Shown here: piece after piece, positions 2,095 to 19,413 of the stretch
How positions within the stretch are numbered: the stretch's first letter is position 1
Layout of the letters: each line of letters begins with the position of its first letter
Origin: Achromobacter denitrificans NBRC 15125
GTDB lineage: Bacteria; Pseudomonadota; Gammaproteobacteria; Burkholderiales; Burkholderiaceae_B
Reading direction: 5' to 3'
Assembly (NCBI RefSeq): GCF_001571365.1
Contig: NZ_BCTQ01000007.1
Coordinates: 1-64,000, forward strand
DNA length: 64,000 bases
The notes under the pieces: model-generated
Seen by the model: only the letters and a program-made list of their open reading frames with translations
Told to the model about the DNA's origin: nothing
Databases searched by the model: none
Made by a program: the position numbers and the translations under genes

Positions 2095-3308
2095 ACGCCG
2101 CCGCGAGCGAGTTCCTGGCCGACCGGGCCCGCGCCATCAAGCCCTCGCCCAGCATGGCGGCCAAGAGCCGCGTGGACCAGCTGCGCGCGCAGGGCAGGGA
2201 CATCATCGACTTCACCGTGGGCGAACCCGACCTGCCCACGCCCGCGCACATCGTGCAGGCCGGCATCGACGCGCTCAACAGCGGCGACATCCGCTACACC
2301 GCGTCCGCCGGCGCCAAGCCCTTGCTGGAAGCCGTGCGCGCCAAGTTCCAGCGCGAGAACGGGTTGGAGTACGCGCTGGACGAACTGATCGTCGGCGTGG
2401 GCGCCAAGCAACTCATCTTCACCGCGCTGGCCGCCACCGTGCAGGCCGGCGACGAGGTCATCATCCCCGCGCCGTACTGGGTGTCGTACCCGGACATGGT
2501 GCTGGTCAACGACGGCACGCCCGTCGTGGTCGCGTGCCCCGAATCCGACGGCTTCAAGCTCACGCCCGAGGCGCTGGAGCGCGCGATCACGCCGCGCACC
2601 AAGTGGCTGCTGCTGAACACGCCCGGCAATCCCACCGGCGCGATGTACGGCGCCGACGAACTGCGCGCGCTGGGCGACGTGCTGGCGCGGCATCCGCAGG
2701 TCTGGCTGATGACCGACGAAATCTACGAACACCTGGCTTACGGCGACGAGCGCCACCTGTCGCCCGCGGCGGCGGTGCCCGCGCTGGCCGGCCGCTGCCT
2801 CACCATCAACGGCGTATCCAAGGCCTATGCCATGACCGGCTGGCGCCTGGGCTACGCGGGCGGTCCGAAGGCGCTGATCAAGGCCATGTCCACGCTGATC
2901 TCGCAAAGCACCAGCTGCGTCAGCGCCATCAGCCAGTCCGCCGCCCGCGTGGCGCTCACCGCCGATCAGGGTTGCGTGCGCGAGGCCGCGGAGGTGTTCC
3001 ACGCGCGCCGCGACCGCATCGAGGCCTTGCTCGATGCGGTGCCCGGCATCCGCTGCCCGCGGCCGCAAGGCGCGTTCTACGTCTACCCGTCGGTGGAGGG
3101 CCTGCTGGGCAAGCGCACGGCAGACGGCCGCGAACTGCGGACCGACCTGGACGTCGTCATGTTCTTGCTGGACGACGCCGGCGTCGCGGTGCTGGACGGC
3201 GCGGCCTACGGCCTGTCGCCGTATCTGCGGCTGAGCTTCGCCACGTCGATGGAGAACATCGAGGAAGGCTGCCGACGCATCCGCGAGGCATGCGCCGGCT
3301 TGATTTGA
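2091..3308 (+). CDS. Class I/II pyridoxal-phosphate aminotransferase
   Basis: A 405-residue fold type I aminotransferase of the aspartate aminotransferase family. The NPTG motif is at 180-183, the cofactor-contacting D-E-I-Y near 209-212, and the Schiff-base lysine in SKAYAMTGWRLGYAG at K244. The carboxylate-binding arginine is in LRLSFATS near the end. It would move an amino group from an amino acid to a 2-oxo acid in the cytoplasm. It is coupled to the RraA-like gene by a 4-bp overlap and followed after 64 bp by an amino acid importer, so it probably starts catabolism of the imported amino acid. The substrate cannot be read from sequence. Confidence 0.9.
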   Translation: MNAAASEFLADRARAIKPSPSMAAKSRVDQLRAQGRDIIDFTVGEPDLPTPAHIVQAGIDALNSGDIRYTASAGAKPLLEAVRAKFQRENGLEYALDELIVGVGAKQLIFTALAATVQAGDEVIIPAPYWVSYPDMVLVNDGTPVVVACPESDGFKLTPEALERAITPRTKWLLLNTPGNPTGAMYGADELRALGDVLARHPQVWLMTDEIYEHLAYGDERHLSPAAAVPALAGRCLTINGVSKAYAMTGWRLGYAGGPKALIKAMSTLISQSTSCVSAISQSAARVALTADQGCVREAAEVFHARRDRIEALLDAVPGIRCPRPQGAFYVYPSVEGLLGKRTADGRELRTDLDVVMFLLDDAGVAVLDGAAYGLSPYLRLSFATSMENIEEGCRRIREACAGLI

Positions 3309-3372
3309 ACGCGGGCGGCCCCGGGGCCGTCCGCAACGGCAGTACCCATACCTACATTTCAGGGGAAATAGC

Positions 3373-4200
3373 ATGAAGACCACCATCGCTTCCTTCGTCG
3401 CCGCCGCCGGCCTGGCCGCCGCGCTGGCTCCCGGCGCCCACGCCGACACGCTGGCCGACATCAAGGCGCGCGGCAAGTTCATCTGCGGCACCATGGGCAC
3501 CGCCGAGCCGTTCAGCTTCCAGGACCCGAAGACCCGCGGCATCGTCGGCTACGAGGTCGACATGTGCCAGGCGGTCGCCGACAGCCTGGGCGTGCCCCTG
3601 GAGCTCAAGCTCATCGCCGTGGAAGCCCGCATCCCCGAACTGATCGCGGGCCGCGTCGACGTCGTGGCGGCCAACCTGGGCTGGAGCCCCGAGCGCGCGC
3701 AGCAGATCGACTATTCGCACCAGCATTTCGTGAGCCTGCAGAAAGTGCTGGCGCGCGATTCGGAGAAAGACCTGAAGGCGCCCGCCGACCTGGCCGGCAA
3801 GCGGGTCAGCGCGGTGCGCGGCTCGTCGTCCGAGCAGGGCGCCCGCAAGAACATCCCCAACGTCGAGCCCGTGACCTTCAAGGACCCCAGCGGCGCCTTC
3901 CTGGCGTTGCAGCAAGGCAAGGTCAGCGGCTTCGTGGCATCCGAACTCATGCTGGTCAAGCTCAAGCAGCAGGCCGCCGGCAGCGCCGTCCCGGTCAAGA
4001 TCCTGGAGCCCGCGCTCTTCGTCGAGCCCTGGGGCATGGGCGTGCGCAAGGGCGACAGCGCGATGCTGGAGCAGGTGAACAAGGTGCTCGACGGAATGGA
4101 AGCCTCGGGCCAGGCCGCCAAGACCTTCGACAAATGGTTCGGCGCCGGCACCCAGTTCGACATGAAGCGCGACTTCCGCATCGAAGCCATCAAGGGTTGA
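3373..4200 (+). CDS. Amino acid ABC transporter substrate-binding protein
   Basis: A 275-residue periplasmic binding protein of family 3 (polar amino acids). The signal peptide is about residues 1-24, with a likely cut after AHA. The mature part starts DTLADIKARGKFICG and holds the characteristic VGYEVDMCQAVADSLG segment. A good ribosome site (aggggA at 3361-3366) precedes the start. Two permeases and an ATPase follow on the same strand, completing the importer. The ligand is not predictable here, but the adjacent aminotransferase suggests an amino acid used as a carbon or nitrogen source. Confidence 0.9.
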   Translation: MKTTIASFVAAAGLAAALAPGAHADTLADIKARGKFICGTMGTAEPFSFQDPKTRGIVGYEVDMCQAVADSLGVPLELKLIAVEARIPELIAGRVDVVAANLGWSPERAQQIDYSHQHFVSLQKVLARDSEKDLKAPADLAGKRVSAVRGSSSEQGARKNIPNVEPVTFKDPSGAFLALQQGKVSGFVASELMLVKLKQQAAGSAVPVKILEPALFVEPWGMGVRKGDSAMLEQVNKVLDGMEASGQAAKTFDKWFGAGTQFDMKRDFRIEAIKG

Positions 4201-4228
4201 CGCGCCGCGCGCGCTGGAGCCTGGTTCG

Positions 4229-4930
4229 ATGCATTACGTTTTCGACTTCGGCGCCATCTTCCAGGGCGAGTATCCGGACTGGCTGCTCAGGGGCTTCATC
4301 ACGACCCTGGCGCTGGCCGGATTCGCCTGGATCCTGGCGTTCCTGGTGGGCAGCCTGCTGGCGGTGATCCGCCTGACGGGCTCGCCCGTGGCCAATGGGT
4401 TGATCGCGACCTACGTCGCTTTCCACCGCAACGTGCCCATGCTGGTGCACATTCTTTTCTGGTACTTCGGCGTGCCGGCATTGTTGCCGCAGGCCGCGAC
4501 CGACTGGCTCAACAGCCACGGCAGCGAATTCATCCTGTCCTGCATCGCGATCGGGCTGGTGATGTCCGCCTACGTCTGCGAAGACCTGCGCAGCGCGGTG
4601 CGGGGCATCCCGGCGGGACAGGTCGAGGCGGCGCGGGCGCTGGGCCTGGGCTTCCTGGCCACCATGCGCAAGGTCGTGCTGCCGCAGGCTTTCCGCATCG
4701 CGATCCCGCCCTTGCTCAACCAGACGCTGCTGCTCTTGAAGAACACCAGCCTGGCCATGGCCATCGGCGTGACCGAACTCACCGCCGCCGGCCGCGAGAT
4801 CGAGAACTACACGTTCCGCACTTTCGAGGCCTATGCCGTCGTCACCGTCATCTACCTGGTGCTGTCGTTCCTGATCATGGGGGGCGGCGCTCTCCTGCAA
4901 CGGCGCTACCGTCCGCTGGGAGCGCGCTGA
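4229..4930 (+). CDS. Amino acid ABC transporter permease
   Basis: A 233-residue inner-membrane permease of the HisM/GlnP type. It has about five hydrophobic segments and the cytoplasmic coupling loop ([19 protein letters not shown], ending [15 protein letters not shown]), the EAA motif that docks onto the ATPase. It lies 28 bp after the binding protein and 2 bp before a second permease of the same kind, so the two probably form a heterodimeric channel. Confidence 0.92.
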
Positions 4931-4932
4931 TC

Positions 4933-5649
4933 ATGTGGGGCATACTCAAGGACAACTGGCTGCTACTGCTCGTGGGGCAGTATCCGCACGGCCCGGTGGG
5001 CGGCCTGGCCGCCACGTTGGGGCTGGCCGCCGTCAGCCTGGCGCTGGCGCTGCCTTGCGGCGTGCTGCTGGCGCTGGGCCGGATCAGCCCCTACCGGGTC
5101 TTCTACTGGCCGGCGTCGGCCGTGGTCTACCTGGTGCGCGGCCTGCCGTTGCTGATGTTCATCTTCTGGGCGTATTTCTTCGTGCCGCTCATCATCGGCC
5201 GCCCGGTGGCCGGCACCACCACCATGGTGGTGGCGCTGGTCTGCTACGAAAGCGCCTACCTGGCCGAGATCATCCGAGCCGGCATCCAGGCGCTGCCGCC
5301 GGGGCAGCAGGAAGCCAGCCGCGCGCTGGGCCTGTCGTACATGCAGACCATGCGGCGCGTGATCCTGCCGCAGGCGCTCTACAACATGCTGCCCAGCATG
5401 CTCAGCCAGTTCGTTTCCACGGTGAAGGAAACCTCGCTGGCCTACGTCATCAGCGTCCAGGAGCTCACCTACGCGGCCAACCAGATCAACAGCGTGCTGC
5501 TGACCAAGCCTTTCGAGGTCTTCGGGCTGCTGGCGCTGACCTATTTCATCCTGAATTTCGGGCTGAGCTCATTGGTGCACCTGACCGAACGCCGTATCGG
5601 CAGGCGCCGCGCCGGGCTCATGCCTGCTCCTCGCGCGGTGCCGACATGA
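4933..5649 (+). CDS. Amino acid ABC transporter permease
   Basis: A 238-residue second HisM/GlnP-type permease. Its EAA loop reads [20 protein letters not shown] followed by [15 protein letters not shown]. It is the partner of the preceding permease. Its stop codon overlaps the ATPase start by 4 bp (ATGA), so translation of the importer subunits is coupled. Confidence 0.92.
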
Positions 5650-6371
5650 TCCGATTTTCCGAAGTGCAGAAGTGGTATGGCCAATACCAGGCGTTGTCCG
5701 ATGTGACGGCGCGGGTGGGGCAGGGCGAAGTGGTGGTGGTGTGCGGCCCCTCCGGGTCGGGCAAGTCCACGCTGATTCGCACGGTCAACCGGCTGGAACC
5801 CATCCAGAAAGGCGTGATCGAGGTCGACGGCCAGGACATCTATGGCCCCAAGGTGCACCTGGACACCCTGCGCAGCCATATCGGCTTCGTATTCCAGCAG
5901 TTCAACCTGTTCCCGCACCTGTCGGTGCTGGAAAACCTGATGCTGGCCCCGCTGCAACTCAAGCGCGCCCGCCGCCCCGAGGCGCGCGAACGCGCCCTGC
6001 AACTGCTGGAACGGGTGGGCCTGACACACAAGGCCGAGGCCTATCCCGCGCAGTTGTCGGGCGGCCAGCAGCAACGCGTCGCCATCGCCCGGGCGCTGGC
6101 CATGAACCCGCCCGTCATGCTGTTCGACGAGCCCACCAGCGCGCTGGACCCGGAGATGGTGGGCGAGGTGCTGCAAGTGATGAAGGGCCTGGCCAAGGAC
6201 GGCATGACCATGGTCTGCGTGACCCACGAAATGGGCTTCGCGCGCGAGGTCGCGGATCGGGTGTGGTTCATGGACGCGGGGCGGATCGTCGAAACCGGAA
6301 CGCCGGAAGAGTTCTTCACCCGGCCGGGGACGGCGCGGGCGCAGAAGTTTTTGGCGGAGATCCGGCATTGA
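5646..6371 (+). CDS. Amino acid ABC transporter ATP-binding protein
   Basis: A 241-residue ATPase of the GlnQ/HisP family. Walker A is GPSGSGKST (about 34-42), the Q-loop [10 protein letters not shown], the signature [15 protein letters not shown], Walker [15 protein letters not shown], and the switch histidine lies in CVTHEMGFA. The start at 5646 overlaps the permease stop. It is the last gene of the operon, and the long repeat begins about 33 bp after its stop. Confidence 0.94.
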
Positions 6372-6403
6372 AGGGCTTGTGCGGGGCTTGGTCCCGGGGC
6401 GGT

Positions 6404-7054
6404 CGGTGGGTTTGGGTTCTTGAGACGCCCGCCGCGTCGGGGGCCTGGGGGTGCGCGGGGCCACGATTGCGGTCCGGAGCCTTCGCTCCGGACTTGCCTC
6501 GGCGGCCCCCCCCCCTCGTCATCCTCGTTGTCGCCTGCGGCGACTGCCTTCGGATTCCCTCGGGCTTATCGACGCCCCGCGCACCCCAGGCCCCCGACGC
6601 GACGGGCTCTGGTGGTTGAAACCTGGCGGTCGCCGGGGAGGATCAGGTGCTTAGGGTTCTTGCCCCGGGTGGTGGGGTGGTGGAGGATCTTGCGGGGCCC
6701 GCCTCGGGCCGGCCGCGCGGGCGGCTGGCCCGAGGCTTACGCGGTGTCTTGCGTCGTGATGGGGGCGCTGCGCGATTGTGGACGGGATGCTGGTGCCTGA
6801 TACCTGCGATGCCTGATACCTGTGTGAGATGACGGTCCCTGTGTGAGATGACGGTCCGTCTCGTCACTTGAACCCCGCCGCCGGATGGGTGGCGCGCGTA
6901 CGGGTCTGCATGCGCAAGCGGCTGCTCAACGCGCGCCACCCATCACCGCTCCCCCCCCAAACGCTGGGGCGGCCTTCAGCACACCACCCTCCGCATGCGC
7001 GAAAGCGCACACCGACCCGACGCCCACCACCGCGTATGCCGTTCTCGGCCGCCC
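6404..7054 (+). repeat. Dispersed non-coding repeat, copy B
   Basis: About 650 bp that match 19529-20143 nearly base for base in the same orientation; the left half also matches copy A in inverted orientation. Modules in order: inverted repeat arms 6433-6461 and 6574-6601 around a hairpin core; a G+C palindrome near 6684-6740; two copies of a tgtgagatgacggtcc unit near 6827-6866; and a 16-bp inverted repeat (6884-6899 with 6929-6944). No plausible protein is encoded. Together with copy A it brackets the 0.35-6.4 kb gene block as inverted copies. Confidence 0.88.
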
Positions 7055-7068
7055 GGGCGGCCGAGAAC
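7041..7068. repeat. Perfect 28-bp palindrome
   Basis: The two 14-base halves, starting gttctcggc and ending gccgagaac, are exact reverse complements with no loop. The palindrome sits where copies B and C diverge: copy C keeps the left half and then jumps to the sequence seen at 7297. It is followed by cgggccccgcaaga, which also follows the different palindrome in copy A. Confidence 0.85.
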
Positions 7069-7133
7069 GGCGGGCCCCGCAAGACTCGTCAATGAACACC
7101 GCTCTAGCAGCGCGGCAAGCGTAGACACGCGTA

Positions 7134-7297
7134 GCCCGTCGGCGCGGGCGTCGCGGACGCGAGCAACCTCGATGCGCCCGAGGGAATCTGAAGGAACCGC
7201 CGCAGGCGGTGACGAAGATGACGACGGGGCAGTCCGGAGCGAAGGCTCCGGACCGCAATCGTGGGCGCGAGCGGCCGCGGCGCCCGCGCCGACGGGC
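7134..7297 (+). repeat. Palindromic element: conserved core with different arms
   Basis: The core at 7165-7264 is nearly identical to the core of copy A (186-281) and is the reverse complement of the cores in copies B and C. Here it is flanked by arms unrelated to those of the other copies: 7134-7164 and 7265-7297, which are imperfect reverse complements of each other. Self-pairing arms of different sequence around the same core argue for a structured or palindromic element rather than simple duplication. Confidence 0.75.
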
Positions 7298-7300
7298 GAC

Positions 7301-7393
7301 CTACGAAAACACTAGACGCCCACGAAAACACAGACGCCCACGAAAACACAGACGCCTACGAAAACACTAGACGCCTACGAAGACACAAGATGC
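7301..7393. repeat. Five 18-19 bp tandem repeats
   Basis: Five head-to-tail units of the form c(c/t)acgaaaacac(t)agacgc begin at 7301, 7320, 7338, 7356 and 7375; the last is the most degenerate. The array ends 25 bp before the apaH stop codon. A single related unit ends repeat copy C near 20147. There are no unique spacers, so it is not a CRISPR array. Confidence 0.85.
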
Positions 7394-7417
7394 CCATGAA
7401 TCCCACGTCCCCAAAAA

Positions 7418-8251
7418 CTACTCGGACAACGGATCCTGAAACTGCGAACACTTAACCTGCACCAGCTTCCGATCCTGCAACCGCAATGCCGTCAACGACC
7501 CCCCCCATACGCATCCGGTGTCCAGGCAGATCACGTCCGGCCGCTGCAGCAGCCCCAGCGTCGACCAGTGGCCGAAAACCGTCGTGACGTTCCGCGTTGC
7601 GCGGTTCGGCACGTCGAACCACGGCACCAGCCCCGGGGGCCAGGCGCCGGGAGTCACCTTGGTGGCGAACTCCATGTGGCCGTTGGGCGTGCACAGGCGG
7701 ATGCGCGTCAGCGCATTGATGATCACCCGCATCCGCTTGCCGCCCTTGTGGTCTTCCTTCCAGGTGGCCGGCTCGTTGCCATACATCTTCTGCAGCGCTT
7801 TTTGCCAGTTCGGGCCGCGCAAGGCGTCCTGGACCTCGCCGGCCAAGGCCAGCGTTTTGGCGACGTCCCATTTGGCCAGCGTGCCGGCGTGGACCAGCAG
7901 GTGGCCCTGCTCGAAATGGGCCAGGGGCCGGAACCGCAGCCAGTTGATCAGCTCGGCCGCGTCCGGCGCCCGCAGCACGTCGTCGAGCGTGTCCGACTTG
8001 GACGGCTTGCGCACGCCGGCGGCCGTGGCCAGCAGGTGCAGGTCATGGTTGCCGAGCACCGAGGTGGCGCGGTCGCCCAGGTCGATGATGCGACGCAGGG
8101 TTTCCAGCGACTCCGGGCCGCGATTGACCAGGTCCCCGGCGAACCAGAAGCGCGACTTGGGGTCGCCGACCAGGTCGGGGTGGGACAGCAAACGATCCAG
8201 CGGCGAGCAGCAACCCTGCACGTCGCCGATCATCCAGATACTGCCGTTCAT
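7418..8251 (-). CDS. apaH: Symmetrical bis(5'-nucleosyl)-tetraphosphatase ApaH
   Basis: A 277-residue calcineurin-like phosphoesterase that hydrolyses Ap4A to two ADP in the cytoplasm; ApaH of this class can also remove Np4-type RNA caps. The metal-binding motifs are in order: IGDVQGC near residue 8, [10 protein letters not shown] near 40, GNHDLHLL near 67, and VHAG and FGHWS histidines further on. Length matches the family. The start overlaps the lptG stop by 4 bp, so it is the last gene of the tonB-like/aroE/mtgA/lptG/apaH run. Confidence 0.95.
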
Positions 8252-12082: not shown

Positions 12083-13163
<1,081 letters not shown>

Positions 13164-13171
<8 letters not shown>

Positions 13172-14942
13172 GAAGTTTGACTCCGAATCGCAGGGCGATG
13201 CCCAGGCCGATCACGACCAGAACGATATTGATGAAGGAAAGCGCGGCCACGATATCGATGGCGCCCGAGGCCCACAGCGACACCAGCATGGACCCGATGG
13301 TCTCGGTGCCGGGCGACAGCAGGTACACGCCGGTGGAGTATTCGCGCTCGAAGATCAGGAACATCAGCAGCCAGGAGCCGATAAGGCCATACTTGGCCAG
13401 CGGCACGGTGACGTGGCGGGTGATCTGGCCGCGGCGCGCGCCCGCGCTGCGGGCGGCCTCTTCCAGCTCGGGGCCGACCTGCAGCAGGGTCGAGGAAATG
13501 AGCCGCAGGCCATAGGCCATCCACACCACCGTATAGGCCAGCCACACGCTGAAGATGGTGCTGCGCATGGCGCGCAGCCATTCGATGAAGTTCTCGCGCA
13601 GCCATTCGGCGAAGGGCAGGGCCGACAGCCAGCCGTTTTCGTCCACGTCCAGCGCGTTGTCCAGCCACATCGGCACGAACAGGAACACCCACAGGAAGGC
13701 CAGGCCGGCCAGCAGGCCCGGCACCGCGCGCGGCACCAGCACGCTGTAGTCCATGAAGCGGGTGACGTTGTCGGGCTTGCGGTGCATGGCCAGGCCCACG
13801 AACATGTAGCACATCACCGCCAGCGCGCCGCCGAACACGCCGATCGCGACCGAGTTGACGATGGCGCGCAGCAGGTTGGGCTGGGCGAACACCGTGCGGA
13901 ACGCGTCCAGCGACAGCACGTCCAGCAGCGACACCCCCATGCCCCAGTTGGACACGAACGCGCGCAGCAGCACGCCCATCAGCGGCACCACGATGGTGAC
14001 CAGCAGCCACAGGGCCACCACGGCGCCCGCCACCCAGCGCCACTTGCCCAGCGGCAGGGGCCGGGCGCGCGAGGCCTTGCCCTTCACGGTGACGAAGCGG
14101 TTGGCGCTGCGCATCAGGCGGCGTTGCAGCATCACCAGCGGGATGGTCATGCAGATCAGCACCACGGCCACGGCGGCCATCAGGTGGTACGAGGGTATGC
14201 CCAGCTTGTTGGTGAGCTTGTAGAGATAGGTGGCCAGCACCAGGTTGCCTTCCGGGTCGCCCAGCACCAGCACCAGGCCGAACACCTCCAGGCCCAGGAA
14301 GAACAGCAGCACGGTGGCGTACAGCATGGCCGGGCGCACCATCGGCAGGCTGACCGACACCATCACGCGCAGCGGCGTGGCGCCGGCCACGCGGGCGGCT
14401 TCCTCCACGTCCGAACCCATGCTGCGCAACGCCGACGAGATGTACAGGTAGGCGTGCGGCACGTGCGTGAGGCCGGCGATGATGACGATGCTGGTCAGCG
14501 AATAGACGTTCCAGGGAACGAAGCCCAGGATGTTCTGCGCCCAGGTCGAGAAGAAGCCCACCGGGCCCGCGGCCACCACGTAGCCGAAGCCCAGCACCAT
14601 GGGCGACACGAACACGGGCACCAGGATCAGCGGCTCGATCCAGCGGCGGCCGGGCAGGTCCGTGCGTATCATCAGGAAGGCCAGCATGCCGCCCAGCGGG
14701 ATGGCGATGATGGCCAGGCCGAAGGCCAGGATGAAGCCGCTTTTCAGCGCCTTGTAGAAATCGGGGTCCGCGAAGATGAAGCGGAACGCGTCCAGGCTGA
14801 AGGTCTTGGACGGGGAAAAGAAGGGCGCGGAGAGAAAGCTCTGGACGATGATGAACGACAGCGGCACGTAGATGGCCAGGGCTGTGATCAGCACCACCAC
14901 GCCGCGCGGCAGGGACTGCCATTTTCTGCGCAATGACTGCAT
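13164..14942 (-). CDS. ABC transporter permease, duplicated FbpB/AfuB type
   Basis: A 592-residue inner-membrane protein containing two permease halves in one chain, as in FbpB/AfuB. Each half has about six hydrophobic segments and an EAA-type coupling loop: one near 180-205 (SMGSDVEEAARVAGATPLRV), the other near 490-515 (VGPELEEAARSAGARRGQI). The fused form makes a second permease gene unnecessary. It lies between the binding protein gene and the ATPase gene, overlapping the latter by 8 bp. Confidence 0.9.
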
Positions 14943-15059: not shown

Positions 15060-16157
15060 TTACTTGCCCGTCGCGGCGCGCCAGTCCTTGATGAACTGCA
15101 GGCGCTTGTTCTGCTCCAGGTAATCCAGCAGCGTTTCGTCGACCGGGATGGGCTTGAGCGAGGCGCCCAGCTTCTTGGTCATGCCGTCCACGTCGTTATC
15201 GCCTTCGATGTCGTCGCGCACGGAGGCCAGGTCGGCCTGGTTGGCCATGATCCCCTGGCCCTTCTGGGACAGCAGGTAGTCCATCCACAGCTTGGCGGCG
15301 TTCTTGTTCTTGGCCTTCTTGCTGATGAAGGCCACGCGCGACAGCACCAGCGCGTAGTCGGTGGGGTAGGCCACGCCCAGCGAGGGATCGGTCTTGGCGC
15401 GGGTTTCGGCGTAGGAGCCCAGGATGTTGTAGCCGATCAGGTTCTCGCCGGAGGACACGCGTTCCATCATGGTGCCGGTGGACGATTGCACGATCAGGCC
15501 GCCCGAGCCGATGCCCTTGAGCGTTTCGAAGTACTTGGGATCGTTGGCCTTGTCCTGCACCGCCAGCATGAAGCCGACCGCCGATTTCTCGATGTCGTAG
15601 GTGGTGACCTTGTTCTTGAACTTGTCCGGCTGGCTGGAAACCAGCTGGGCCAGCGCGGCGTGCGTGGTCGGCACTTCGTTGGCGGGGATCAGGCGCTTGT
15701 TGTAGATGAACACGGCCGGCTCGTACGTGGTGCCGTAGGCCGAGTCCTTCCAGACGGCCCAGGCCGGCAGCTTGCCGGATTCGGGCGACTTGTACTTCAG
15801 GGCGTAGTCCGTGGCCAGCTTCAGCGCCGAGTCCATCGACGAGCTCCAGACGATGTCGCCGCTGCCGCCGCCCGCCGCCTGTTCGCTGATGTAGCGGTTG
15901 TAGAGCTCGGTGCTGTTCATGTCGTTGTATTCGACCTTGACGCCCGGATACAGCGCTTCGAAGCCCTTGATGATGGGGCCGGCTGCCTTGGTATCGGTGG
16001 TCGAGTAAATGACGACCTTGCCTTCCTTCTTGGCGCCGTCCAGGATCTTCTGGTAGTCGGCCGGATAACCTGCCGGCACTTGCTGCGCGAAGGCGCTGCC
16101 GGTGGCGATGGCGAATGCAGCGGCGCAGGCGGCCGCCAGTTGGGACTTGGCAAGCAT
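15060..16157 (-). CDS. ABC transporter substrate-binding protein (AfuA/FbpA-like)
   Basis: A 365-residue periplasmic solute-binding protein with a signal peptide ending AFA-Q near residue 24. I chose the ATG at 16157 because ggagacaac precedes it; a longer frame to 16247 would put 30 polar residues before the signal sequence. Motifs such as VVIYSTTDTKA, YEPAVFIYNKR, TTYDIEKSAVGF and GYNILGSYA are shared with the C-terminal domain of the kinase encoded just upstream, so the two are paralogues. The family includes ferric iron and organophosphate binders (AfuA, PgtC, HptA); the ligand is not evident. Confidence 0.9.
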   Translation of the reverse strand: MLAKSQLAAACAAAFAIATGSAFAQQVPAGYPADYQKILDGAKKEGKVVIYSTTDTKAAGPIIKGFEALYPGVKVEYNDMNSTELYNRYISEQAAGGGSGDIVWSSSMDSALKLATDYALKYKSPESGKLPAWAVWKDSAYGTTYEPAVFIYNKRLIPANEVPTTHAALAQLVSSQPDKFKNKVTTYDIEKSAVGFMLAVQDKANDPKYFETLKGIGSGGLIVQSSTGTMMERVSSGENLIGYNILGSYAETRAKTDPSLGVAYPTDYALVLSRVAFISKKAKNKNAAKLWMDYLLSQKGQGIMANQADLASVRDDIEGDNDVDGMTKKLGASLKPIPVDETLLDYLEQNKRLQFIKDWRAATGK

Positions 16158-16262: not shown

Positions 16263-18755
16263 CTAGGGGTAATCCCTGGCGGGCGTGTCCGTGACCAGCC
16301 GGATCCAGTTCTGCACGAAGCGCGAATGCCGGCGCTGGTCCAGGCCGACCAGCAGCGCGGGGCTCAGCACCACCGGCTGCACGATGCCCTGCGAGCGCGC
16401 CAGGACCGCCTCCGAGGTCCAGCGCCCGGGCGTGTCTTCCATGATGGAGCCGAGCGCCGCATGGCTGGACGCCACCTGCTGGCCGGCGGGCGACAGCAGC
16501 CAGTCCACCAGCGCGCGTCCCAGGTCGGGGTTGGGCGCGGTGCGCGCGATCAGCACCGAGCGCGCCAGCACCAGCACGTAGTCCTGCGGGAACACCACGC
16601 CTATCGGGCTGCCCGCGGCCTGGCGCGACAGGGCGTAGGAGCCGAGGATGTTGTAGCCGATGTCGATGTCGTCGTTCTCGATGGCGTCCAGGATCTCGGC
16701 GCTGGTGGCCGACAGCCGCACGCCCACCTGGCCCATCGCGTTGGCCAGCCCCCAGAAGTTCGACGAAACCAGCTCGTCCTGCTCGGCCAGCAGGTAGCCC
16801 ACGCTGCTGGCGGAGATGTCGTAGGTGCCGACGCGGCCGTGCAGCCGGGCCGGGTCCCGCTCCAGCAGGCGCAGCAGGTCCTGGCGGGAGCGCGGCACGG
16901 TGGCTTCGGTAAAGCGCTTGGGGTTGTAGACGATGACGGCGGGCTCGAAGGTGAATCCGTAGACCTCGTGGCGCCAGATCGCCCAGGAGGGCAACTTGGC
17001 GGCATAGGGCGAGGCATAGCTGAGCGCGTAGCCGTCGTTGGCCAGCCGGATCTGCAGATCGGACGCCGAGCTCATCAGCACGTCCACGTCTTTCAGGCGC
17101 CCTTCGATCGCGGCCTCGTAGAGCTCGCGGCTGCCCATCTCGCGATACACCACGGAGACGTCCGGCCGCTGCGACTGGAACCCCTGGATCAGCGGCGCGA
17201 CCACCGGCGTGTCGGTGGGGCCGGCGATGGTCAGGATCCGCGAGGAGGGCTGGGGCGCCGGATAACGCGTGACGATCTCGGCGAAGTCGGCGGCGCGCAC
17301 CGGGGCGGGCGCCGCCGCCAGCAGCAGTCCGGCGATGCACAGCGCGCCCAGGCCGGCGGCGGCCGCGCGCCACGGCGCCGAGCGCGCCAGCGGCAGGATG
17401 ATGCGCGCCGTCAGGCCGCCGCCGGGACGGTCCTGCAGCCACAGCGAACCGCCGTGCGCCACGGCCACCGAGCGCACGATGGCCAGCCCCAGGCCGGAGC
17501 CGGGCTGCGCGTCGCCGGCCCGTCCGCGCACGAAGCGCTGCTGCACGGCGTCCTTCTCGTCGTCGGCCACGCCGGGGCCGCGGTCCGACACGGTGAGGGC
17601 CACGCGGAACCCCGCCACCGGCGTTGCCTGGATGTCCACCGGGCCTTCCGGCGCGTAGCGCAGGGCGTTGTCCACCAGGTTGCGCAGCATTTCGCGCAGG
17701 GCGACGCGATCGCCGGCGATCCGGGCCCGGCGCACGCCGGGCGCGATCTCGATGCGCAGCCGTTGCGCTTCCAGCGGACCGATGCGGCGCCGCGTTTCGT
17801 TGATGGTCTCCGCCACGCCCACCAGGGTGCGGGCGCCTTTGCCGAGGCGGTGCGTGATGGTGGCGTCCATCAGGAGTTGATTGATCAGCTGGCTGGCGTG
17901 GGTGGCGTTCTGGTGGATGCGTTCCAGCCGCGCATGCAGCCGTTGCGGATCGGTTTCGTCCAGGGCCACCTCGGCCTGCGCGCGCAGCGAGGCCAGCGGG
18001 GTGCGGACCTGGTGCGCCGCGTCGGCGACCAGGGTATTCAAGGTGTCCATGATGCCGGACAGGCGTTGCATGAAAGCGTTCAGGGCTTCGGCCAGCCGCT
18101 TTACCTCGCGGGGCACGGGCGTCGCGAGCGGCGCCAGGTCGTCCGGCGCGCGGCTGCGCAATTCGCGTTCGACCGCGCCCAGAGGCGCGAAGGCGCGTTG
18201 CACGCCGAACCACAGCAGGCCCAGGGCGACCAGCGATACGACGACCAGCGGCAGCACGCTGCGGCCCAGGATCTCGTCGGCCAGCGCCGCGCGCGAGCCC
18301 AGCGTCTCGGCCACCCGCACGGTGACCCATCCCGCGTGCTGGCTGGCGGACACCAGGCGCCCGACGGTGGCCACGCGCACGGGCTCGTCGTGATAGCGCA
18401 GGTAGGCGAATACCGGCGTGGCCGATTGGGCCAGCGGCAGGCCCGGCGCCAGGTCGTCGTAGCCGGTGATGAGCCGGCCGTTGGACGCGCGCGCTTCGTA
18501 GAACACGCGCTCGCCGCCCGACAGCATGGCCAGCGACGACACCGGCGGCTCCACGGTCACGTTGTTGTCCTCGATCTGCACCGAGCCCGCGATGGTCAGC
18601 GCGGAAGCGGCCAGCAGCCGGTCGAACGCCTGCTCCGCCGCGCGCTGGGCGTAGCCGCGCAGGAAGAACACCAGCCCGATCAGCGCGCAGGCCAGCAGCA
18701 GCACGCCCAGCGTGAAGACGCGGCGGCGGATGGAGAAGCTTTCAGGGATGCTCAT
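16263..18755 (-). CDS. Sensor histidine kinase fused to a periplasmic solute-binding domain
   Basis: An 830-residue hybrid read in one uninterrupted frame. Residues 1-455 are a TctE-like sensor kinase: membrane helix about 14-32, periplasmic domain, second helix about 166-184, linker, H-box ADAAHQVRTPLASLRAQ with H248, N-box LRNLVDNALRYAPEG with N363, and G-boxes SDRGPGV and GSGLGLAIV. Residues 458-489 are a positively charged then hydrophobic stretch ending APAPVRAAD, like a signal peptide or third membrane helix. Residues 490-830 are a complete AfuA/FbpA-type binding domain (FEPAVIVYNPKRF, GTYDISASSVGYL, GYNILGSYALS), paralogous to the adjacent transporter binding protein. Predicted topology puts this domain in the periplasm. 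It overlaps the response regulator gene by 14 bp. It could sense the transported solute directly, or be cut into kinase and binding protein. PgtB/PgtC and HptS/HptA are split analogues. Confidence 0.92.
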   Translation of the reverse strand: MSIPESFSIRRRVFTLGVLLLACALIGLVFFLRGYAQRAAEQAFDRLLAASALTIAGSVQIEDNNVTVEPPVSSLAMLSGGERVFYEARASNGRLITGYDDLAPGLPLAQSATPVFAYLRYHDEPVRVATVGRLVSASQHAGWVTVRVAETLGSRAALADEILGRSVLPLVVVSLVALGLLWFGVQRAFAPLGAVERELRSRAPDDLAPLATPVPREVKRLAEALNAFMQRLSGIMDTLNTLVADAAHQVRTPLASLRAQAEVALDETDPQRLHARLERIHQNATHASQLINQLLMDATITHRLGKGARTLVGVAETINETRRRIGPLEAQRLRIEIAPGVRRARIAGDRVALREMLRNLVDNALRYAPEGPVDIQATPVAGFRVALTVSDRGPGVADDEKDAVQQRFVRGRAGDAQPGSGLGLAIVRSVAVAHGGSLWLQDRPGGGLTARIILPLARSAPWRAAAAGLGALCIAGLLLAAAPAPVRAADFAEIVTRYPAPQPSSRILTIAGPTDTPVVAPLIQGFQSQRPDVSVVYREMGSRELYEAAIEGRLKDVDVLMSSASDLQIRLANDGYALSYASPYAAKLPSWAIWRHEVYGFTFEPAVIVYNPKRFTEATVPRSRQDLLRLLERDPARLHGRVGTYDISASSVGYLLAEQDELVSSNFWGLANAMGQVGVRLSATSAEILDAIENDDIDIGYNILGSYALSRQAAGSPIGVVFPQDYVLVLARSVLIARTAPNPDLGRALVDWLLSPAGQQVASSHAALGSIMEDTPGRWTSEAVLARSQGIVQPVVLSPALLVGLDQRRHSRFVQNWIRLVTDTPARDYP

Positions 18756-19413
18756 GGTTGCGGGCCTGGTAGCCGACGCCGCGCACCGTGACGATATCGA
18801 TGGAGGCGCCCGCCAGCTTCTTGCGCAGCCGCGAGATCAGCAGCTCCAGCGCGTTGAGCGATCCGTCGTCCAGGTCGAAGAGCTGGTTCATCAGGCGTTC
18901 CTTGGCGACGGTCTGGCCCAGCCTGCCCACCAGGATCTCCAGCAGGCGGAATTCGCGCCGCCCCAACTCCAGCGGCGTGCCCGCCAGGCTCACGTGGCGG
19001 TTCGCCAGGTCGAGGCTGAGGTTGCCGTAGGCGGTGACGCTGGTGGTCTGGCCGGTCGGACGGCGCATCAGGGCGCGAAGCCGGGCTTCGAGTTCGCGCA
19101 GGTCGAAGGGCTTGACCAGATAATCGTCCGCGCCCAGGTCGAGCATGTCGATCTTGTCCTCGATCTCGGAGCGCGCGGTCATGACCAGCACGGGCGCCTC
19201 CAGCCCGGCGGCGCGCAATTCGCGGATGACGGTGAAGCCATCCTTGCCTGGCAGGTTGATGTCCAGGACGAGCGCGTCCCAGGTCTCGTCCAGCCCCCAC
19301 CGCAGCGCCGCCACGCCGTCGCGCACCCATTGCACGCTGTGCCCGGCCGAGCGCAGCTTGCTTTCCACGGCATCGCCGAGGTCGAGATTGTCCTCGACCA
19401 GCAGAATGCGCAT
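18742..19413 (-). CDS. OmpR/TctD-family response regulator
   Basis: A 223-residue two-component regulator. The receiver domain (1-115) begins MRILLVEDNLDLGDAV, has the phosphoacceptor aspartate in DALVLDINLPGKDG (D51) and the lysine in DDYLVKPFDLREL. A C-terminal winged-helix DNA-binding domain follows (LELGRREFRLLEILV and LISRLRKKL). It is the first gene of the kinase/ABC importer cluster and overlaps the kinase by 14 bp. It likely activates the downstream importer operon (inference from position). Confidence 0.93.
   Translation of the reverse strand: MRILLVEDNLDLGDAVESKLRSAGHSVQWVRDGVAALRWGLDETWDALVLDINLPGKDGFTVIRELRAAGLEAPVLVMTARSEIEDKIDMLDLGADDYLVKPFDLRELEARLRALMRRPTGQTTSVTAYGNLSLDLANRHVSLAGTPLELGRREFRLLEILVGRLGQTVAKERLMNQLFDLDDGSLNALELLISRLRKKLAGASIDIVTVRGVGYQARNHEHP

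Follow-up and report, generated by a model that had tools for sequence, protein, structure and literature searches.

A histidine kinase fused in frame to a solute-binding protein through a predicted internal signal peptide in Achromobacter denitrificans

A kinase and a solute-binding protein in one reading frame

In the window, by which we mean the whole 64,000-nucleotide stretch of Achromobacter denitrificans NBRC 15125 that was analyzed, one gene encodes a histidine kinase continued in frame by a complete solute-binding protein (SBP), and the joint between the two looks like a conserved internal signal peptide, cleavable, with a predicted cut between A488 and A489. Sensor kinases fed by SBPs are known; the better reading of the present variant, judging from its sequence, is that the SBP is fused to the kinase through an internal signal peptide that is predicted to be cleavable. 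We regard it as quite probable that the gene product is a polyprotein precursor belonging to a three-component sensor (regulator, kinase and sensor SBP), from which the SBP is freed by signal peptidase I. Among titles and abstract openings of the openly licensed literature, we found no description of an SBP placed behind a kinase catalytic domain. PMC4618731 tabulates SBP_bac_1 as an "input domain" of kinases, with a single entry for each of three Azospirillum strains out of four and no remark there on position; these kinases are possibly the same fusions as those reported below.

The fusion gene opens with an ATG at 18755 on the minus strand and closes with a stop at 16263-16265, with no stop in between (Table 1). 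Two membrane-spanning segments of the kinase half were placed by eye at approximately residues 14-33 (TM1) and 165-187 (TM2), and the catalytic residues H248, N359, N363, D391, G393, G419, G421 and G423 do not vary across the 51 orthologues aligned, a subset of 67 sequences from which near-copies were thinned. The SBP half (SBP1) matches SBP_bac_11 over residues 510-764 (4.3e-15) as well as SBP_bac_1, SBP_bac_8 and SBP_bac_6. An earlier, sequence-only reading had described one 830-residue frame running from kinase boxes through a hydrophobic stretch into a complete SBP, with the SBP behind the catalytic domain and a third membrane insertion needed to export it; open reading frame, Pfam and alignment all agree with this arrangement. 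Its AfuA/FbpA-type label was roughly right, but among solved structures 3c9h and the 7f6 series come nearest by sequence, and the match to HitA is weak. No ligand of SBP1 could be read by sequence from 3c9h or 7f6e, and literature searches on both structures yielded nothing on them among the papers listed. On the plus strand, an 821-aa open frame at 16326-18791 of the window lies antisense to the fusion gene and is probably a shadow typical of high GC.

Table 1. Location of the fusion gene, its parts and the adjacent genes in the window
Feature	Position	Strand	Basis
Fused histidine kinase::SBP, 830 aa	16263..18755	minus	ORF, Pfam, ortholog alignment
2CSK_N sensor domain, residues 23-162	18270..18689	minus	Pfam 1.2e-33
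HisKA dimerisation/phosphoacceptor domain, residues 239-301, phosphoacceptor H248	17853..18041	minus	Pfam, alignment
HATPase_c catalytic domain, residues 348-457	17385..17714	minus	Pfam, alignment
Linker, predicted internal signal peptide, residues 458-488	17292..17384	minus	motif/hydropathy
SBP1, mature SBP part, residues 489-830, predicted dedicated sensor	16266..17291	minus	Pfam, two-gene relatives
Response regulator of OmpR/TctD type, 223 aa, sharing 14 nt with the start of the kinase	18742..19413	minus	ORF, Pfam, NCBIfam
SBP2, separate transport-type SBP, own N-terminal signal peptide by eye	15060..16157	minus	ORF, Pfam
ABC permease, two BPD_transp_1 stretches, PhnU2-like	13164..14942	minus	profile match
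ABC ATPase, PhnT2/PotA-like	12083..13171	minus	profile match

The fusion stands second in a closely packed minus-strand gene set that runs from the regulator through the fusion, SBP2 and the permease to the ATPase. The best NCBIfam match of the regulator is TctD (1.1e-60), at a score under that model's cut-off. Similarly, SBP2, permease and ATPase genes come after the fusion in 40 loci of the family (L072-L111), as far as each stretch extends. At order level, outside the family, seven loci (L143, L146, L148, L149, L151, L152 and L160) carry an SBP2-permease-ATPase set opposite a TctDE-like regulator-kinase pair that lacks SBP1.

The fusion is conserved in the family and recurs outside it

The nearest named relatives of the window, at 97-98% identity, place it in Achromobacter. 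An open fusion was found in 38 of 43 Achromobacter genomes. In 36 of them the search returned a single full-length match free of stops, and inspection revealed full-length frames in two more (G003 and G033). The fusion is cut by contig ends in G014 and G018, no match was found at 1e-40 in G027, and in G032 and G036 a paralogue is present and the fusion absent. Among 268 family genomes, the genus included, a further 30 genomes from 9 other genera carry it, all as open frames, and openness is retained down to 42% identity. Altogether 93 fused ORFs were counted in 141 loci, some being the same gene counted twice, and 67 loci picked from the fused set gave 67 distinct sequences. A stop, a frameshift or an artefact at the joint had been named in advance as what would undo the fusion, as had homologues always encoded by two genes; instead, the frame is open in the intact orthologues, with the genus and family counts given above. 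Open fusions across 10 genera rule out a sequencing artefact or a recent loss of a stop codon. In one family locus (L091, genome G176, 2600-8150) frame disruptions affect all three of the kinase, SBP and permease genes in the orthologous operon, which suggests decay or poor sequence, and it is therefore no clean two-gene case.

Single full-length matches in an order sample of 399 genomes came from 4 genomes, all within the family. A profile search of a phylum sample (398 genomes) gave, among the matches listed, only the window's own full-length match, and the fusion is thus uncommon in that sample. Among 72,556 plasmid records, of which 319 matched, the best 60 included matches that span 94% or more of the query in one piece; these come from Peteryoungia, Azospirillum, Palleronia, Salipiger and Sulfitobacter. 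One of the plasmid fusions, L173, lies on plasmid ABSP7_p3 of Azospirillum brasilense Sp7. The same domain order thus recurs in the family, in Peteryoungia, in Azospirillum and in some Roseobacteraceae.

Two-gene relatives and repeated origins of the fusion

A scripted neighbor search returned 120 kinase-SBP neighbors, 72 fused and 48 not. Removing L091 and 6 repeats from the latter left 41, and with L204 and L206 added we obtained 43 two-gene loci. The link to separate kinase and SBP sensors made in the sequence-only reading thus holds, such relatives being common, and kinase and SBP genes are adjacent in many Pseudomonadota. The order regulator-kinase-SBP matches that of the fusion, a TctD-like regulator gene accompanies the kinase in all 43 loci, the SBP usually has a signal peptide, and its gene often overlaps that of the kinase by 4 to 31 bases. 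A processed polyprotein is expected to be one frame whose homologues are split into two genes, the second product having its own N-terminal signal peptide; this pattern is seen here. Kinase relatives without a neighboring SBP also occur (for example L127, L128 and L129).

One two-gene relative resides in the same genome as the fusion. This paralogous module (contig C1, L112) comprises an unfused regulator, a kinase (41%), an SBP (35%) and a divergent CitMHS carrier. A TctC-type SBP gene and the CitMHS carrier adjoin it (1759-2724 and 3482-4822), neighbors pointing to carboxylate sensing. In another locus (L150, genome G434, minus strand), the SBP that follows the kinase stop at 6569 seems by eye to have a twin-arginine-like signal peptide (SPTRRAFLAGLATAGAVPGARA).

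We built a tree of 79 kinase and SBP pairs (36 fused, 43 split) with the linker omitted and with approximate cut points for the last six pairs added. It needs three changes between fused and split states, at least two of them forced by well-supported branches, although in an unrooted tree three changes could equal one gain and two losses. With groups chosen after a first tree, the AU test ruled out a single clade of all fusions (p 2.4e-61) and weakly rejected one clade of the betaproteobacterial, Azospirillum and Peteryoungia fusions (p 0.0175). On this tree, the fusion arose at least twice, and since a single fusion clade is rejected, the Roseobacteraceae fusions are independent of the window's.

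The joint resembles an internal signal peptide

The linker between HATPase_c and the SBP varies in length and sequence among fused loci, and yet its anatomy recurs: a basic n-region, a mildly hydrophobic core, Pro at -6, Ala or Val at -3 and Ala at -1. In the 51 aligned orthologues, residue 488 (-1) is Ala in 50, -3 is Ala or Val in 47 and -6 is Pro in 41; apart from these sites, every column from 457 to 495 reaches at most 42/51. The Ala at 488 is encoded by each of the four possible codons (GCC 23, GCG 23, GCA 2, GCT 2). A strict [AV]xA motif closely follows the core in 68 of the 72 distinct linkers of fused proteins; for TM1 and TM2 of these proteins the counts are 11/72 and 1/72, and tails shuffled 500 times averaged 48.3 and never exceeded 58. 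A looser motif separates poorly (71/72 linkers, 58/72 TM1, 20/72 TM2). The evidence for a cleavage site is a motif and hydropathy test on Ala-rich linkers from 72 mutually related sequences. When representatives below 80% identity were taken, 17 of 21 passed the strict test, and the four that failed have sites by eye: LYA|Q (L076), SWA|H (L084), TQA|T (L090) and GVA|D (L201). In L086, L172 and L175, the strict match falls within the core or at its edge, and further plausible sites follow it.

A core of this kind could also anchor the SBP. If the linker were an uncut third transmembrane helix, the product would stay a tethered single chain, with the SBP held by the periplasmic domain of the kinase and its local concentration raised. 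The frame is uninterrupted in intact orthologues, the core is long enough to span a membrane, and charge is placed as in an anchor or a signal peptide alike: K/R residues average 1.92 ahead of the core and 0.16 past it in 76 linkers, 69 of which have a net positive excess on the cytoplasmic side. Two split relatives, L179 and L188, have SBP N-termini that by eye resemble long uncut membrane anchors, so there may be anchored sensor SBPs in the two-gene module, and in the tree no two-gene relative lies nearer to the Roseobacteraceae fusions than L188. Nevertheless, we consider permanent tethering unlikely. It has no need for Ala at -1 or Ala/Val at -3, and yet -1 is the best-kept position of the linker. 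The linker core is also less hydrophobic (2.50, SD 0.28) than TM1 (2.94) and TM2 (2.99); it lies near the N-termini of the two-gene SBPs (2.37, SD 0.34, n = 41), which are likewise hydrophobic and pass the strict test in 26 of 41 cases. Moreover, the independent Roseobacteraceae fusions end their cores in PGVA|D, AEA|D and AQA|E (sites by eye) directly ahead of the SBP. Repeated fusion with the site kept is what is expected if the joint is cut.

Because the joint bears this conserved signal-peptidase I signature, the chain is probably cut. Here we depart from the sequence-only reading, which proposed a lasting single chain with the kinase controlled from its far end.

The SBP as a probable dedicated sensor

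Carriers adjoin the two-gene loci in place of the window's ABC system. CitMHS genes are found beside 21 of the 43, TctA and/or TctC beside 18 and 2HCT beside 2, with none detected beside the remaining 2; an ABC permease of the window's type is absent near all 43 (by tblastn at 1e-10 in 41 loci and by annotation in the other two). No binding protein is known to serve CitMHS or 2HCT carriers, and the SBP of the module is therefore most simply a sensor. Given that relatives adjoin CitMHS, TctCBA or 2HCT genes without that permease, it is probably a dedicated one.

It could be argued that a freed SBP mainly serves uptake, be it through the adjacent ABC system or a different transporter, that the fusion is a neutral loss of a stop codon and that the kinase senses its ligand directly. 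SBP1 is indeed a full SBP, 33% identical to SBP2, and adjoining SBPs need not bind the kinase: in the results outlined in PMC11113362, binding of AgtS and AruS to their adjoining SBPs was not seen. We find this account improbable, since the operon's own SBP2 is present in the family loci, the two-gene relatives lack the ABC permease and kinase and SBP genes remain adjacent in many Pseudomonadota. Finally, overlapping or almost touching genes in two-gene relatives might suggest that the SBP is made separately by re-initiation within the gene, the fusion being merely apparent, which is highly improbable and nearly refuted for lineages such as L088, L173 and L175, whose linkers (among 17 checked) have no internal start codon, so that the SBP must be produced within the chain there; the single start in the window's linker, a GTG at codon 486 also present in L001, L044 and L056, lies past the core and could not yield an exported protein.

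Proposed maturation and signaling

We favor the cleaved precursor and propose the following course. The kinase half would enter the membrane through TM1 and TM2. The hydrophobic stretch past the ATPase domain, which would correspond to the N-terminal signal peptide of two-gene relatives minus its start codon, would then re-insert and take the SBP to the periplasm. Signal peptidase I would cut past A488, yielding a free 342-aa SBP, while the cut signal peptide would stay on the kinase as its third membrane anchor. It is fairly likely that the protein starts out as a single chain that signal peptidase I then matures, in a fusion that evolved at least twice, with SBP export coupled to kinase insertion and the third anchor kept. 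Through the fusion, kinase and SBP would be made in equal amounts and delivered to the same place.

The ABC transporter has its own SBP2, and SBP1 would act as the sensor instead of serving it. Its ligand is probably a di- or tricarboxylate or a metal complex thereof, as judged from neighboring CitMHS, TctCBA and 2HCT genes and from citrate lyase genes beside L175. Ligand-loaded SBP1 would dock on the N-terminal periplasmic 2CSK_N domain of the kinase, presumably the natural input route, and the kinase would phosphorylate the TctD-type regulator, which may switch the adjacent SBP2-permease-ATPase genes. Sensor domain and SBP co-diverge (partial Mantel r 0.44), but the catalytic domain co-diverges with the SBP more strongly (0.64), so the signal is not specific and co-evolution particular to the sensor domain is unsupported.

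Comparison with known systems

An SBP fold serves as sensor in BvgS/EvgS-type kinases, where the SBP domains are N-terminal and never released; in the fusion, by contrast, the SBP follows HATPase_c. The Bradyrhizobium FbcH cytochrome b/c1 precursor, in which two genes are fused in frame and an internal signal peptide is kept and cut, is a precedent for the joint, although it gives rise to respiratory proteins and not to a sensor. The fusion locus combines a 2CSK_N periplasmic sensor and a TctD-like regulator with an SBP encoded together with the kinase, and we take the Bordetella kinase BctE to have a 2CSK_N domain as well.

SBP-listening kinases are few, with about 10 characterized according to the count given in PMC9602780. 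Among them, citrate-loaded BctC is described as acting on BctE in Bordetella (PMC5812351, PMC9602780). As described there, BctC/BctDE resembles the fusion in joining a regulator, a kinase and an SBP that signals to the kinase's periplasmic domain, as we propose here. However, BctC is a TctC-family transport SBP from a separate gene, whereas in the fusion locus an SBP_bac_11/1/6-type SBP follows the catalytic domain and transport has another SBP of its own; in Pfam, SBP1 matches SBP_bac_11, 1, 8 and 6 and gave no TctC match. Similarly, in Ruminiclostridium cellulolyticum, CuaD is presented as a second, signaling SBP beside CuaSR, which control cuaABC (PMC10384115). By that account, CuaDSR/CuaABC shares with the fusion locus a sensor SBP that goes with a two-component system and a separate transport SBP that goes with an ABC transporter, but CuaD is an unfused, separate lipoprotein with cellobiose as ligand in a Gram-positive organism. 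The AgtS/AruS result and the non-specific co-divergence call for caution with the BctE and CuaDSR analogies. Nearest at hand is the paralogue L112, which has a homologous kinase and SBP in the same gene order and a signal peptide on the SBP, but separate genes and a divergent CitMHS instead of an ABC system.

If cut as predicted, the product would be a rare bacterial signaling polyprotein. The fusions identify the partner SBP of a kinase, making partner assignment, ligand screening and complex modeling directly testable, and they suggest that a three-gene sensor module is widespread in Pseudomonadota and has drawn little notice. They also hold a caution for annotation pipelines: nine plasmid fusions (L172-L176, L201-L203 and L205), each annotated as one coding sequence, are named for the SBP half alone ("extracellular solute-binding protein"), and the kinase half goes without a name.
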